DNA of 64,000 nt from positions 48,235 to 112,234 of the forward strand of contig NZ_SZVP01000012.1 in NCBI RefSeq assembly GCF_005885605.1, written 5' to 3'. The position numbers and the translations under genes are program-made. Below, one piece after another: positions 49,959-58,298 of this stretch. The first letter of the stretch is position 1. Each line of letters begins with the position of its first letter. The notes below the pieces were generated by a model. That model was not told where the DNA came from, searched no databases, and worked only from the letters and a program-made list of their open reading frames with translations. The stretch is from Colwellia ponticola. GTDB taxonomy: Bacteria; Pseudomonadota; Gammaproteobacteria; Enterobacterales; Alteromonadaceae.

Positions 49959-50924
49959 TTAATATCCACTGGTAATTGTTTGAGTAGTAATGCCGCTGGT
50001 AGCTAATGCAAGGTTACTGGGGAGGTTTTCATTACCTGCTAATAAGTAAATTACCTGTTGTCCTTGTTGAGCCAGCTCTAGCGCATGCTGATAATTAAGA
50101 ATAATGGTGGAACTAATGCTTTGCGGGTACTTTTCTGCGTCACGTCGAACATACTCAATAAGTTCTATATTAACCGATTTATCATAAAAAACGGCATCAG
50201 CAAATTGTAGCGCCCGATGCGCCTTCAAGGTTAAATTATCGGGATTACCATCAAGAGTTTGAATAAAAATAATAGCGCCTTTGGGTGGTGCTATCTCTTC
50301 TTTTAAGCTAACAATTAACTGTTGCTCTGCCGCTTGTTGATTACCATCAAGTAATGCTTGACCTATTGAACCTCGCAAAGTAGTCTCCCAAAAAGTACGT
50401 CGATTACGTATGCCTTTAATACGTGCTTTGACGTGTTCTCGAAACTTTAATGAAAAATCAGCCAAACGGCCGTAACCTTGCGGTAATGTCTTTTCTATTT
50501 GTTCGCGTAACATACGTATAAGAATTGGCGCACTGCCTGAACTTGATAAAGCAATAATCATAGGTTCACGGTCAATAATAGCGGGCGTAATATAAGTACA
50601 CAGAGCAGGTTGGTCAACCACATTAGCAAGAATATTCAGCGGTAGTGCTTCATGGTAAACCTGTTCATTTACCTCGGTATCGTCTGTTGCAGCAATCACT
50701 AGGGTAATGTTGATTAATAAGCCGGCTTTATAGTTATGAGGTAACCAAGTTAGGCTATTGTCGTTAATTAAACGGGCAACACCTTCAGTAACACTTGCTG
50801 CCATAACGGTAATGTTTGTAGTGGTTTTTAATAGTAATTCTATTTTGCGGGCAGCAACATCACCGCCGCCAACTACCATGGCATTAATTTTACTACCATC
50901 TAGAAAAATGGGAAAATATCTCAT
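49959..50924 (-). CDS. Siroheme synthase with CysG-type dehydrogenase/ferrochelatase domain and a truncated methyltransferase remnant
   Basis: 321 residues. Residues 1 to about 205 are the CysG N-terminal half: NAD-binding MVVGGGDVAARKIELLL and ALSSSGSAPILIRMLREQIE, giving precorrin-2 dehydrogenase and sirohydrochlorin ferrochelatase. From about 212 a segment (GAIIFIQTLDGNPDNLTLKAHRALQFADAVFYD) aligns with the start of the CysG uroporphyrinogen-III methyltransferase domain, but the GAGPGD motif is gone and only about 110 of 250 residues remain, ending near the position of the RLKGGDPF motif (here YLLAGNENLP). Methylation must come from another enzyme (CobA/SUMT type). The remnant is in frame and without stops, so it is probably retained rather than a recent frameshift. 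Confidence 0.85.
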   Translation of the reverse strand: MRYFPIFLDGSKINAMVVGGGDVAARKIELLLKTTTNITVMAASVTEGVARLINDNSLTWLPHNYKAGLLINITLVIAATDDTEVNEQVYHEALPLNILANVVDQPALCTYITPAIIDREPMIIALSSSGSAPILIRMLREQIEKTLPQGYGRLADFSLKFREHVKARIKGIRNRRTFWETTLRGSIGQALLDGNQQAAEQQLIVSLKEEIAPPKGAIIFIQTLDGNPDNLTLKAHRALQFADAVFYDKSVNIELIEYVRRDAEKYPQSISSTIILNYQHALELAQQGQQVIYLLAGNENLPSNLALATSGITTQTITSGY

Positions 50925-51895: not shown

Positions 51896-52783
51896 ATGCC
51901 TTGGATACAACTTAGATTAAGTGCTAATGAAGATAACGCGGAAAAATACAGTGACTGGCTCTCAGCTTGCGGTTCACAAGCGGTTACCTTTGTTGATGCA
52001 CAAGATACACCTATATATGAACCACTACCAGGTGATGATGTTATTTACTGGTCTAGCACTGTGGTTATGGGCTTATTTGAAGCCAACCATGATATGGATA
52101 AAGTGATTAGTTATTTGCAAAGCATTCATCCTGATAAAGAAAACATGCTTTATAAGCTAGAGCAACTAGAAGATAAAGACTGGGAACGTGAATGGATGGA
52201 TAACTTTCATCCGATGAAGTTCGGTGAACGCCTATGGATTTGTCCTAGCTGGCGCGATGTGCCAGAGCCTGATGCGGTAAATGTTATGTTAGATCCAGGT
52301 CTAGCGTTTGGTACAGGTACTCACCCAACTACAGCACTATGTTTAACGTGGTTAGACGGTTTAGATTTACAAGATAAAACCGTAGTCGATTTTGGTTGTG
52401 GCTCCGGTATTTTATCACTTGCCGCGCTTAAGCTCGGTGCTAAGAAAGTCATTGGTATTGATATTGACCCACAAGCACTACAAGCAAGTCTTGCGAATGC
52501 TGAGCGAAACAATGTCGCTGATAGGCTTGAGTTATACTTACCTAAAGATCAACCAGCATTTAAAGCTGACGTTGTTGTAGCAAATATTCTTGCAGGTCCA
52601 TTACGTGAGTTAGCACCAACTATTATGGAGTTTGTTGGTGATAAAGGCTTAATAGCATTATCTGGTGTATTAGAAGAGCAGGCTGAAACGTTACAAACAA
52701 TGTACGGGCAATGGTGTGATATGGAGCCAGTAAGTGTACAAGAAGAATGGGTTCGTTTAAACGGTCAACGTAAGTCAACTTAG
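51896..52783 (+). CDS. prmA: Ribosomal protein L11 methyltransferase
   Basis: Trimethylates lysines and the N-terminus of ribosomal protein L11. 295 residues. N-terminal substrate domain ([20 protein letters not shown]), then SAM-binding domain with [15 protein letters not shown] and [20 protein letters not shown], and [10 protein letters not shown] (NxLxxP-like). In E. coli it is followed by dusB-fis; here 4.5 kb of other genes separate them. A G+C-rich hairpin follows. Confidence 0.97.
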
Positions 52784-52984: not shown

Positions 52985-54808
52985 TTAATTTTTTGATTCG
53001 TTGATTTGAGATACATCAAAGGTAGTTACTCTATTACGTCCTGAGTTTTTTGAGACATAAGCTGCACTGTCAGCATCTGCTAATAGTTTTTCTAAATTAT
53101 AGCCAGAACGCACTACATCGGTTACACCAAAGCTGGCCGTTATCGAAAACTCATACCCTGATTCTGCTGTAGTTATTGCTTCAATTGCTGCACGGCAAGC
53201 TTCAGCGCGTAGTATGGCTACATCAATATTACAACTTGGCAATAGTAAGCAAAACTCTTCGCCTCCTAAGCGGGCAAAAATATCATTTTTACGGCTAATA
53301 TGCTTACAAGCATTAATCGTGGCTTTTAATGCCCAATCGCCACAAGCATGACCAAAAGTATCGTTAACTTTTTTAAAGTGATCTAAATCAAACATAATTA
53401 AACTTAAGGGTTGAATAGTGCTTTTACAATGTTCTAAGGCGCTTTGTGCCACGTGAGTAAAATGACCTCTATTATAAATACCCGTTAATGCATCATACTC
53501 CGCTAGCTCTTTTATGCGTTTATGTGCCTTTAACAATCGACCAAACCATAATATGAATAAGACCAATATCACTGCTAATATGGCCATCATTAACTGAACA
53601 TTGGTCACTTTCGCTTTTGCTAAGGCTTGTTCACTGATCAGGAGAGCATTTTCCTTATTAAGTAGCTCAATCTTGGCTTTTTGTTCAAAAGATTTGTGCT
53701 CGGCAAGTTGAAAAGCAAGGTGTTTAGCTTTTTCTCCTTCAAGGTGGGCTTTTTCTATTTTGGCATATTTTTCAAAATAGCGTAAAGCGAGTGGGAAGTC
53801 CTGTTGTTTTTTAGCAACCTGATAAAGCAAAAAATAAGTGTCAACCCCTTGCAAAAGGTTAGTCATATTTTTGTTTACTGCTAAAGCTTCAGTCGTATAA
53901 ACTTTCGTATTATCTACATCACCAAGTTGCCAATAAGCTTTCGCAATAACGTTAACAGTTTCGGCAATTAACATAGGGTATTGTGTTAAACGTATTTGCT
54001 CTAGATAACTCAAAATAAAGCTTAAAGCTTTATTAGGCATATCTTCTTGCAAAAATAGCTTAGTTTTATATATACGTACTATATTGGCATTAATCTTATT
54101 ATTGGCACTGGTACATTTTTGGATTGTATCTTCTAACTCAGCAGCGTTTGACGTTAATTTATGGAGGTTAAACTTTGCTTCTAAGGTGAGTTGCCTTAAC
54201 CAGCAATCATTTTTATCTGAGAGATTTCGCTTAGCAAGTAGATCGATATAGTTTAGTGCTAATGAATATTGTCCCATTTGATTATAAAAAATAATAGTGA
54301 TGAGTAAGCCATTTTGATAGTGCTCATTATTATGAATGGTTGGTAAGGCATTAATGTTTTTAGTGACTTGTTCTAGCCCTTTTTGCCAATTTTTTGCCGG
54401 CATATAAATATTAATAAGTGCGTAATTAGCTCTAAACTTAAGTAAACTGCTAGCGTTTGAATGTAAGACTGCCTTGAGTTTATCTTCAGCTACATCATAC
54501 TCACCAACAAATGTCAGATGATACGCATATAAAAGGTTTAAATATTGCTGTAGTTCAGTTGGTAGGTTTTTTTGTTGTGCTATTTCAAAAATTATTTCTT
54601 TAAATAGTGTTGGGTTACTGCGTCTATATTTATCTGCAAGAGTTAATTTTTTTGATATTTCCTCTATAGAGAGTGTACCTTTAGTAACGTTTTGTTGTTG
54701 TATTTGAAATGCTTGTGCTGTTTTAAACGTAAGAGAGATAGGAATTAATAACAGCACAATAAGGCTATATTGAGTAAAATAGTCGAATATTGTGCTATTT
54801 TTTTTCAT
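52985..54808 (-). CDS. TPR-GGDEF diguanylate cyclase, membrane-bound
   Basis: 607 residues. Signal/anchor segment at 1-33, then a periplasmic region of TPR-like helical repeats (about 50-390), a membrane helix (about 403-423, VQLMMAILAVILVLFILWFG) and a cytoplasmic GGDEF domain. The active site is FARLGGEEF (GGEEF variant, active in known enzymes), and the allosteric I-site is RKND five residues before it. DLDHFKKVNDTFGHACGD is the usual N-terminal motif. So it should make cyclic di-GMP in response to a periplasmic signal. The start lies 20 bases after the stop of the candidate borosin precursor gene, so it is probably in the same operon. Confidence 0.9.
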   Translation of the reverse strand: MKKNSTIFDYFTQYSLIVLLLIPISLTFKTAQAFQIQQQNVTKGTLSIEEISKKLTLADKYRRSNPTLFKEIIFEIAQQKNLPTELQQYLNLLYAYHLTFVGEYDVAEDKLKAVLHSNASSLLKFRANYALINIYMPAKNWQKGLEQVTKNINALPTIHNNEHYQNGLLITIIFYNQMGQYSLALNYIDLLAKRNLSDKNDCWLRQLTLEAKFNLHKLTSNAAELEDTIQKCTSANNKINANIVRIYKTKLFLQEDMPNKALSFILSYLEQIRLTQYPMLIAETVNVIAKAYWQLGDVDNTKVYTTEALAVNKNMTNLLQGVDTYFLLYQVAKKQQDFPLALRYFEKYAKIEKAHLEGEKAKHLAFQLAEHKSFEQKAKIELLNKENALLISEQALAKAKVTNVQLMMAILAVILVLFILWFGRLLKAHKRIKELAEYDALTGIYNRGHFTHVAQSALEHCKSTIQPLSLIMFDLDHFKKVNDTFGHACGDWALKATINACKHISRKNDIFARLGGEEFCLLLPSCNIDVAILRAEACRAAIEAITTAESGYEFSITASFGVTDVVRSGYNLEKLLADADSAAYVSKNSGRNRVTTFDVSQINESKN

Positions 54809-54822
54809 TAAAGTAATTCTTT

Positions 54823-54850
54823 TAGAAGCTAGAAGCTAGAAGCTAGAAGC
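54823..54850. repeat. Heptanucleotide tandem repeat TAGAAGC x4 at the precursor gene 3' end
   Basis: Four exact copies of TAGAAGC. On the minus strand they encode the last six residues LLASSF and the stop codon of the precursor gene. Seven bases is not a multiple of three, so a change of copy number can change the reading frame. With three or four copies a stop still falls at the same codon; with two copies the frame would run into the ATG of the diguanylate cyclase gene in register. Confidence 0.92.
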
Positions 54851-55107
54851 TTATTAATTGACTCATTATCACTTTCTTGATTATCGTCCTCTTGTTGATC
54901 ATCTTCTGTGGGGAGTACTTGAGAGTAAGATATGATTTTAGGTAAATCAGCAATCGTTTCAGCTAACTTATCAGCATTTTTTTCTGTAATAGCTTGCTGT
55001 TGTTCGGTAGTTATTTCAGCAGTCGTTAAAAAAGTAGTCATATTTTCTTTGTTAACTAAATAAGCATCAGTAGCCATCGTCTCTAATACTTGAATTACTT
55101 TATTCAT
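54829..55107 (-). CDS. Candidate split-borosin precursor peptide
   Basis: 92 residues, small and acidic. Residues 1-54 are predicted helical (IQVLETMATDAYLVNKENM and TTEQQQAITEKNADKLAETI) and resemble the N-terminal binding domain of borosin precursors such as SonA. A hydrophobic segment LPKIISYSQVLP (55-66) follows, a candidate core for backbone N-methylation, then an acidic stretch (EDDQQEDDNQESDN) and a tail KLLASSF. It is directly downstream, on the same strand, of a borosin-type methyltransferase gene (55205-56023) and 20 bases upstream of the GGDEF gene. GGAG is nine bases before ATG at 55107. The assignment rests on context and pattern, not on a database match; the modified residues are unknown. 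Confidence 0.75.
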   Translation of the reverse strand: MNKVIQVLETMATDAYLVNKENMTTFLTTAEITTEQQQAITEKNADKLAETIADLPKIISYSQVLPTEDDQQEDDNQESDNESINKLLASSF

Positions 55108-55200
55108 CGCTTTGTACTCCGTTATTATTATTAATTAAATTTTTTGGGGGAGGGTTCTATATTTTCTTTATTGGGACAACCTCTTAGATAGTTATAAAAC

Positions 55201-55220
55201 TAAACTAAACTAAACTAAAC
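55201..55220. repeat. Pentanucleotide tandem repeat TAAAC x4
   Basis: Four exact copies of TAAAC (further partial copy AAAAC before). On the minus strand the repeat encodes the last residues of the methyltransferase (KFSLV) and its stop codon, so slippage could change the C-terminus. Confidence 0.92.
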
Positions 55221-56023
55221 TTGGGTCTATTATTCTGTTTAACTTCACGTTTGTCTATGTCGGCTAATAGTGCTAATACTTTATCATTAGGTTGCATTTT
55301 TTCACTGGGCGGTATCACCAAGGTCGTATGCATAAATAATTCAGCATCGATTAGCTCAGATAAGTGAATTTTATCAGCACGCATGGTATCGATGGCAATC
55401 CCTTTAGCTTGATACAATATCACTTGATGATCGCTAGGATAGTGTTCTAATAATAAATCAACCAACACTTGGCGATAAGCACGTCCGGTTGAAAACTTAG
55501 CGAATGACTGATCACCGGCTAACGCCACTTGCCACAATATTAAAAAGGCAGAATTATCAATATTACGCTTATAAAACATAAACTGGCTAGTTTCAAAGTG
55601 GCTACAGCCTGTTCTACCAGGATCTATTCCTAAGTCAGCATATAAACAATCTTCAGCAGATATGCCGGGTTCCATAGTAGCAGGTAGCTCTTCAATTTTT
55701 GCTTTTTTTATGGCTCGATGACTAATACAAGCAAATACACCTGGGTGACCATAAAAAGCAGCAACCACTTTTTTACCTGCGCGTACTTCAGTTAGTATGG
55801 CTTCAACCATTTCGTTGTAAGTAATATTACGATTTTTACCTTCTTGGTAAAAAGGTTGTAAACTACGTACATCATTACTCATTGCTTCTAACCACTTTTC
55901 TGCAAAGCCGTTTGCCATTAGTGAAAAAACCACTTCAGCTTGTTCAATATGACTTCTTGCAATGGGACTAATATGCGCTCCTAAGGTCACACCAGTACCT
56001 ACACACACTAAGCTACCTGACAT
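55205..56023 (-). CDS. Borosin-type peptide backbone alpha-N-methyltransferase
   Basis: 272 residues of the tetrapyrrole-methylase fold (GTGVTLGAHISPIARSHIEQ at the start; FYGHPGVFACISHRAI and GISAEDCLYADLGIDPG in the middle). The active-site residues Tyr59, Arg65, Tyr69 and Tyr91 have exactly the spacing of the catalytic residues of fungal OphMA (Tyr66, Arg72, Tyr76, Tyr98), and the sequence resembles SonM, the split borosin enzyme of Shewanella. These enzymes transfer methyl groups from SAM to backbone amides of a precursor peptide. Unlike OphMA there is no fused precursor; a separate small protein encoded 97 bases downstream fits that role. It is not part of siroheme or cobalamin synthesis. 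The start is ATG at 56023; the upstream ribosome site is weak. Confidence 0.88.
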   Translation of the reverse strand: MSGSLVCVGTGVTLGAHISPIARSHIEQAEVVFSLMANGFAEKWLEAMSNDVRSLQPFYQEGKNRNITYNEMVEAILTEVRAGKKVVAAFYGHPGVFACISHRAIKKAKIEELPATMEPGISAEDCLYADLGIDPGRTGCSHFETSQFMFYKRNIDNSAFLILWQVALAGDQSFAKFSTGRAYRQVLVDLLLEHYPSDHQVILYQAKGIAIDTMRADKIHLSELIDAELFMHTTLVIPPSEKMQPNDKVLALLADIDKREVKQNNRPKFSLV

Positions 56024-56185: not shown

Positions 56186-56776
56186 TTAGTAAACGTGGCA
56201 AATAAATTTTTTTTGCCACAAGCATTTAACGGCATACTGGTAACAATTCTCGGGGTTATCATCTTGTAATGTGCGGTTATAAATAAACCCTAGCTTTTTA
56301 ACAAAACGTTTTGTAGCTAAGTTTTTACTAGCATAAAAGGCATTAATTTTATCAAAGTAAAGATAAGTAAAACCGTATTCCATTAACGCACCCATCGCTT
56401 CTTCGGGGAATAATTTACCGTTGGCTTTGGGACAGAGCACTATGCCTATCTCAGCTTGTTTCGTTTCATTCATCGCTGTTTGGTTCATGATTTTGGCATT
56501 GTGTGGTCTCATCAAAAATGAAAAGGTTTGAGTGCCGATAATCGAGTTACTGCTTTTACACACTATGGCCCAAGTGATAACTGATTTTTTGCCAGCACTG
56601 ATTGCGCGTTGATTTGCTTTGAGCGAATGAAAAAAGGCTTTATTCGCTTCTATTGGAGTTAATGCTCCGCCATTATGACGCATGACTTTTGCATTACTGT
56701 ATTGTCGAGAAAAAAAGTGCTCATCTTCTTTCGCCAAGGGTCTTATTAATAATCGCTGTGTAGTAAAACTATGCAC
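56186..56776 (-). CDS. GNAT acetyltransferase, RimJ/RimL-like
   Basis: 196 residues. N-terminal strand FTTQRLLIRPLAKEDEHFF and the acyl-CoA region FPEEAMGALMEYGFTYLYFD, with ASKNLATKRFVKKLGF near the C-terminus, are typical of the GNAT RimJ/RimL group that acetylates protein N-termini or other amines. It starts 162 bases upstream of the borosin methyltransferase gene on the same strand, so cotranscription is possible. A long perfect palindrome lies 16 bases before its start codon. Confidence 0.82.
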   Translation of the reverse strand: MHSFTTQRLLIRPLAKEDEHFFSRQYSNAKVMRHNGGALTPIEANKAFFHSLKANQRAISAGKKSVITWAIVCKSSNSIIGTQTFSFLMRPHNAKIMNQTAMNETKQAEIGIVLCPKANGKLFPEEAMGALMEYGFTYLYFDKINAFYASKNLATKRFVKKLGFIYNRTLQDDNPENCYQYAVKCLWQKKFICHVY

Positions 56777-57275: not shown

Positions 57276-58298
57276 ATGAAAATAGGTACATATCAACTTA
57301 ACTCTCAGGTCATACTTGCTCCCATGGCAGGCATAACAGATCAACCTTTTCGGCAACTATGCTGTCAATTAGGTGCGGGTTTGGCAGTATCTGAAATGCT
57401 TTCGTCAAATCCGAAAGTATGGAACACCGAAAAGTCTAAACTGAGAATGTTACATGGCGATTCAGTAGATATTCGTAGTGTACAAATTGCTGGCAGTTGT
57501 CCTGATGAGTTAGCGTTTGCTGCCAAAGTAAATGCTGATAACGGTGCACAAATTATTGATATCAATATGGGCTGCCCAGCAAAAAAAGTAAATAAAAAAT
57601 TAGCGGGTTCTGCTTTATTAAAAGAACCAGCATTGGTTGAGCGTATCGTTCAGTCGGTGGTAAAAGCGGTAAATATTCCGGTTACGCTAAAAATTCGCAC
57701 AGGATGGTGTGAAGATACTCGTAATGGTATTGAAATAGCGAAAATAGCTCAAGATAGTGGTATAGCATCACTCGCAGTGCATGGTCGTACTCGTAATGAC
57801 TTTTATAAAGGCAATGCAGAATACGACACCATTAAGGCAATAAAATCAGCTATTTCAATTCCTGTAGTGGCAAACGGTGATATTACTTCACCTGAAAAAG
57901 CATTACAGGTGTTAACCCATACGGGGGCAGACGCTATCATGATTGGTCGTGGCGCACAGGGTCGTCCGTGGATTTTTAGAGAAATTAATCATTTCTTGGC
58001 AACGGGCAACAAAATGCTCGCACCGACATTAAACGAAGTTCGTTTAATTATACTCAATCATGTTATGGCGTTACATCAGTTTTATGGGGACTTCAAAGGA
58101 GTGATGATTGCCCGTAAACACGTGTCTTGGTACGTACAAAACTTGGTTGAAACTGGTGATGGTTTCAGTGCTGAGTTTGCGCTTGAACAAGGCAAAGCGT
58201 TTAGAGCTATTTTTAATGCTTTAACGTCTACCAATGAACAATTGATGATGTTAGAGAAATTTTTTGATGACTTTGCCGCTGGTTCTTTTAAGGGCTAA
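57276..58298 (+). CDS. dusB: tRNA-dihydrouridine synthase B
   Basis: FMN-dependent enzyme that reduces uridine to dihydrouridine in tRNA. 340 residues (321 in E. coli). FMN-barrel start [16 protein letters not shown], catalytic cysteine in [14 protein letters not shown] (about residue 99), [14 protein letters not shown] and [12 protein letters not shown] are all present. It precedes fis by 58 bases, the conserved dusB-fis operon. Confidence 0.96.

Follow-up and report, generated by a model that had tools for sequence, protein, structure and literature searches.

A split borosin locus of Colwellia ponticola and its conserved TPR-GGDEF neighbor, a candidate receptor for the methylated peptide

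What does a borosin do for the bacterium that makes it? The chemistry of bacterial borosins is known, but the portion of the literature covered here establishes no role for them. The question is raised anew by a 64,000-nucleotide stretch of DNA from Colwellia ponticola (contig NZ_SZVP01000012.1, positions 48,235 to 112,234), which was analyzed whole and is called the window below. On its minus strand, genes are transcribed in the order GNAT acetyltransferase, 272-residue enzyme, 92-residue protein, and 607-residue protein with tetratricopeptide repeats (TPRs) and a GGDEF domain, with intergenic gaps of 162, 97, and 20 bp, respectively. Because the borosin and sensor genes stay together in many relatives, the modified peptide probably serves as the signal for its neighboring sensor; from sequence comparison and modeling, we put at about 60% the probability that the methylated peptide is the ligand of the neighboring TPR-GGDEF sensor, i.e., that this split borosin would signal to its own periplasmic receptor.

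A split borosin enzyme and its precursor

The original prediction, made from the sequence alone, described a borosin backbone N-methyltransferase and a separate precursor, and both open reading frames (ORFs) lie where it placed them on the minus strand (55205..56023 for the enzyme and 54829..55107 for the small protein). All 25 Protein Data Bank (PDB) sequences that match the enzyme at an E value of 1e-3 or better are borosin methyltransferases; the E values were 1.5e-79 for SonM, 1.3e-43 for dbOphM, 1.1e-40 for OphMA, and 2.7e-34 for MroMA. The predicted catalytic residues Tyr59, Arg65, Tyr69, and Tyr91 align with SonM Y58, R67, Y71, and Y93, and none of the four varies among the 123 aligned homologues; their spacing (+6, +4, +22) is that of the OphA mutants Y66F, R72A, Y76F, and Y98A named in PDB titles, which bears out the OphMA-type arrangement first proposed. 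In the part of the SonM study covered here, the R67A variant retained only trace activity (PMC8429565). The enzyme tree, of 91 rows, puts the window enzyme in a 50-row clade (support, 100/100); a nearby separate clade of 12 rows (100/99) holds the SonM-type enzymes of family f6, including one that adjoins a near-identical SonA (locus L143), and the genome's own tetrapyrrole methylase (L195), the single such row, forms a very long outgroup. The suggested comparison between SonM/OphMA homologues and tetrapyrrole methylases places the enzyme near the SonM-type clade and apart from the one tetrapyrrole methylase included, so the grouping that would have refuted the original prediction was not seen, and the enzyme is predicted to be a SonM-type backbone N-methyltransferase.

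As a single query, the 92-residue protein had no significant match in PDB or Pfam. It took a profile of 41 precursors, one of them the window's, out of the 52 identified by that point, to obtain a match to the SonA leader, at E values of 3.8e-4 to 7.2e-4. The first 52 residues were modeled by AlphaFold2 as five helices (block-mean pLDDT, 87 to 93), and among the 50 Foldseek matches listed, the model resembles borosin proteins only. Together with VIA-align, these models delimit a leader, the borosin-binding domain, at residues 1 to 53 (54949..55107). Residues 55 to 66, LPKIISYSQVLP (54910..54945), are the likely core, judging from the alignment of the 41 precursors and the position of the SonA core. 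The protein is acidic toward its C terminus, where residues 67 to 85 (54853..54909) form an acidic tail; a tail of this kind is usual in this subgroup, and SonA-like precursors lack it. By its homology to SonA and its modeled fold, the protein is a separate borosin precursor, as anticipated from its acidic character and helical N-terminal half. With a SonM-type enzyme carrying the catalytic Tyr, Arg, Tyr, and Tyr and, close by, a separately encoded homologous precursor with a borosin-binding domain, we are confident that this locus encodes a split borosin system. Two other matches were set aside: NCBIfam PRK13689 (E = 7e-4) was far under its cutoff and was not used, and Pfam LigA matched 5 of the 41 precursors with a best E value of merely 0.13.

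The sensor gene as a conserved partner

Directly after the precursor gene lies the TPR-GGDEF gene (52985..54808, minus strand). Its product has a signal peptide, a TPR solenoid at residues 48 to 334 (53807..54667) in which C202 and C232 are invariant in 30 aligned sequences, and a membrane helix at residues 404 to 422 (53543..53599; hydropathy, 2.83), so arranged that a periplasmic TPR sensor and a cytoplasmic diguanylate cyclase are predicted. The GGDEF domain (PF00990, E = 2.8e-39) carries the intact active-site motif of a diguanylate cyclase, GGEEF, at residues 515 to 519 (53252..53266); R506 and D509, just upstream, we take to be the I-site. GGEEF is present in at least 121 of 140 GGDEF sensors, the other 19 not having been inspected.

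Loci were surveyed with profiles for the enzyme, the precursor, the TPR sensor (its first 430 residues, without GGDEF), and the GNAT protein, and by single-sequence search for a pepsin-like protease. The 126 distinct enzyme genes were drawn from four sources: the window itself, 32 named loci, 100 regions selected out of more places (eight of these regions, L169 to L175 and L178, were centered on sensors), and 26 short loci. A precursor-like ORF was found within 6 kb of 117 enzyme genes, a pairing beyond chance; a TPR sensor was found within 6 kb of 124, and both were found at 116. GNAT genes lay within 4 kb of 73 and pepsin-like protease genes within 15 kb of 43. The usual order is enzyme, precursor, sensor; in a minority (L114, L134, L146, L148, L156, and L158), the sensor is beside the enzyme and the precursor beyond. 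The original prediction had listed the TPR-GGDEF gene as a mere neighbor, but the gene belongs to the system as a conserved component and is not incidental, since 124 of 126 enzyme genes have a TPR sensor nearby. One locus (L105) departs from this linkage: an enzyme gene, a GNAT gene, a pepsin-like gene, and two near-identical precursors are present, and no TPR sensor was found within 6 kb.

Because proteins encoded next to enzyme genes served to train the sensor profile, the count of 124 is not independent evidence; a single-sequence search of whole genomes is. Using the window's own sensor without its GGDEF domain, we found both enzyme and sensor in 38 of 99 genomes, the enzyme only in 6, the sensor only in 3, and neither in 52 (Fisher P = 1.6e-17, uncorrected for relatedness); within the genus, the corresponding numbers were 24, 0, 3, and 12. 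Three genomes (G045, G059, and G090), whose only matches were weaker than an E value of 1e-5, were not counted as having the sensor. Of 82 sensor places listed, the 72 retained reached down to an E value of 6e-9 (10 weaker ones were excluded), and 61 of these 72 had an enzyme gene within 10 kb. As for the three genomes with the sensor only, in G001 the contig ends beside a precursor and sensor, G002 has a sensor fragment only, and G023 has a sensor alone. TPR-GGDEF neighbors also occur at SonA-type loci (L093, L095, L106, L132, L136, L143, and L176); at a further one, L090, the same TPR neighbor is found with its GGDEF part in a separate ORF.

The output domain of the partner can differ. In some relatives, a TPR histidine kinase stands in place of the TPR-GGDEF protein: among ten sensor-type proteins without a GGDEF match that were scanned, eight contained HATPase_c (seven of them also HisKA and three also receivers). 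In the remaining two (L119 and L160), a TPR protein beside the precursor ends soon after a hydrophobic stretch, and TPRs but no output domain were recognized. Precursor-sensor cassettes, moreover, duplicate together around one enzyme gene. Three precursor-cyclase cassettes lie upstream of the single enzyme gene in L034, with a further cyclase downstream, and L036 and L041 have three cassettes each. At L165 (7836-10016), five tandem precursors with differing cores precede one cyclase. Second loci in three genomes (L169 to L171, in G036, G033, and G024) contain a GNAT gene, a precursor, and two TPR-GGDEF genes but no enzyme gene, which is elsewhere in the genome and so would have to act in trans.

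Divergence of core and sensor

We compared distances across 82 adjacent pairs of an acidic-tail precursor and a GGDEF sensor, after dropping pairs with fewer than seven acidic residues after the leader and pairs whose sensors were 95% or more identical. Core and sensor distances were correlated (r = 0.57), with a partial correlation of 0.46 given GGDEF and leader (partial Mantel, uncorrected for relatedness); with the sensor controlled, the core correlated at -0.06 with the leader and at 0.03 with the GGDEF domain. The core-sensor partial r was 0.49 within the genus (n = 34), where core and GGDEF gave 0.18 (P = 0.048), and outside it 0.36 (n = 48). In the whole set, the strongest 52-residue windows of the sensor start at residues 113 to 191, and within the genus the window at residue 35 is equally strong. 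When the enzyme was added as a further control, in the 55 pairs preceded immediately by an enzyme gene, the values were 0.38 for core-sensor, -0.15 for core-enzyme, and 0.18 for core-leader (P = 0.024). Other partial correlations in this subset were 0.34 for leader-sensor, 0.64 for enzyme-GGDEF, and 0.46 for leader-enzyme, the last recovering a contact known from crystal structures. These data suggest that core divergence follows the sensor domain and not the enzyme.

A signaling model and its alternatives

In the model that we propose, the five-helix leader would dock on the enzyme dimer, and the enzyme would N-methylate hydrophobic residues of the core, proceeding from its N-terminal to its C-terminal side. 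The lipophilic peptide could reach the periplasm, a route proposed because backbone N-methylation can favor membrane passage (PMC8429565, in the part covered), and bind the sensor's TPR solenoid, in the same cell or a neighboring one, where binding would alter synthesis of cyclic di-GMP (c-di-GMP). Between these steps, a protease would cut off the leader and perhaps the acidic tail; this may be the pepsin-like shewasin in many relatives and, as no pepsin-like gene was found in a search of the window and its own genome, another protease here. The GNAT protein might acetylate the new N terminus of the processed peptide.

A borosin precursor is reportedly a substrate of shewasin A. In our survey, 22 of 99 genomes have a pepsin-like gene (PF00026), and 21 of these also encode the enzyme. 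In 19 of the 22, such a gene is within 10 kb of the enzyme gene, which suggests processing; in G065 and G089 it is more than 200 kb away, and in G001 it is on a contig without the enzyme gene. A 60-residue ORF in L033 (6810-6992), whose precursor is among those closest to the window's, matches the start of the protease and is apparently a remnant of it. Shewasin D is mainly cytoplasmic, according to the part of the source covered (PMC4814920). The GNAT gene (56186..56776, minus strand; PF13302, E = 4.4e-20) went unmentioned in the original prediction but is part of the system in many loci. Where the precursor has an acidic tail, 59 of 69 enzyme genes have a GNAT gene beside them, compared with 9 of 36 where the precursor is SonA-like; for 21 enzyme genes there was no downstream precursor call.

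Several points qualify the receptor reading. The covariation method recovers a known contact, yet it also gives high values that are probably due to shared history, so its result can be called suggestive. The modeled TPR domain resembles the Rap/NprR peptide-pheromone receptors, and other TPR proteins score nearly as high. Adjacency and co-occurrence by themselves would fit equally well if the borosin were a secreted natural product of the ordinary kind, with the cyclase simply regulating its production or release on another cue; that c-di-GMP can control secondary metabolism is generally known and counts toward this alternative. We nevertheless think it unlikely, because repeated cassettes keep one sensor per precursor, histidine kinase versions occupy the same gene position, and it is the sensor domain, not the GGDEF domain, with which the core covaries. 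Still less probable is recognition by the sensor of the whole precursor, or of the enzyme-precursor complex, as a regulatory partner, with no processed peptide. The leader-sensor partial correlation is about equal to that of core and sensor, and the lack of a pepsin-like match in the window's genome would also fit; however, the TPR domain is predicted to be periplasmic while inspection found no export signal on the enzyme or precursor, and the clustering of protease genes with the enzyme gene suggests processing. A reading of the enzyme as a tetrapyrrole-type methylase, with the small protein unrelated to it, is scarcely credible: the enzyme matches the broad Pfam TP_methylase superfamily model (E = 1.8e-20) and, weakly, NCBIfam models including precorrin methyltransferases, but no NCBIfam tetrapyrrole equivalog reaches its cutoff (all are far below), the tree does not group it with the genome's own tetrapyrrole methylase, a remote outgroup of one row, the PDB matches are borosin enzymes throughout, and the borosin residues are invariant.

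A peptide ligand for the neighboring sensor thus remains our preferred reading. Its wider form, in our judgment evenly poised, is that split borosins are N-methylated signal peptides, each with its own periplasmic Rap-like TPR receptor and an exchangeable output (GGDEF or histidine kinase), and that the pairs duplicate and diversify around a shared methyltransferase, feeding c-di-GMP. If so, backbone-methylated peptides would join bacterial signaling, c-di-GMP control would gain a new kind of input, and many natural peptide-receptor pairs would become available for engineering. The conserved unit of precursor and sensor makes borosin function directly testable.

Surroundings of the locus

The block is flanked by what we presume to be homologues of prmA (51896-52783) and dusB (57276-58298). 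Among 19 Colwellia-type loci (L031 to L047, L052, and L062), several of which stop short of a flank, prmA flanks 17, dusB flanks 14, and both flank 12. Perfect short tandem repeats lie at 54823-54851 (TAGAAGC x4.1), covering the precursor gene's 3' end, and at 55197-55221 (AAACT x5), covering the stop of the enzyme gene; they are possible slippage sites between the co-oriented genes. Shuffled sequences contained more promoter- and terminator-like sites than the actual sequence, and the sole terminator-like site falls within the enzyme gene. No Rfam family reached its gathering score in the window, which thus offers no support for a c-di-GMP riboswitch. A 321-residue ORF at 49959-50924 resembles siroheme synthase; the TP_methylase model matches it only over model positions 9 to 88, and it is possibly truncated or without the usual methylase half.

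Relation to known systems

The likeness of the modeled TPR domain to the RRNPP receptors (Rap/NprR) is nearly equaled by its likeness to other TPR proteins; the pairing of peptide and candidate receptor is seen here as linkage and covariation of genes. Shewasins, bacterial pepsin homologues (PMC4814920, covered in part), have PF00026 counterparts in the same cluster in many relatives, none of them in the window's genome. A drawing of borosin types already bears a GGDEF label (PMC11395268, Figure 1 legend), and the GGDEF link as such is therefore not claimed as new. That paper ties a GGDEF protein to a borosin type; the part of its text covered here does not name the type and contains no receptor proposal, TPR sensor, kinase variants, or paired cassettes. 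In our literature search, borosin with tetratricopeptide returned nothing and borosin with GGDEF returned that paper only, which does not settle the priority of the receptor idea. The closest relative is the type IV split borosin SonM-SonA of Shewanella oneidensis, which, in the part of its description covered (PMC8429565), has the same catalytic residues, a homologous enzyme, and a separate precursor with a five-helix leader; a TPR-GGDEF gene also comes after the near-identical SonA of L143. The window's system, known from its genes, differs in its core, in the acidic tail that follows it, in the GNAT gene upstream, and in its separate enzyme clade, and the precursor alignment and tree agree with its initial description as a split-type member whose core differs from that of the Shewanella system.
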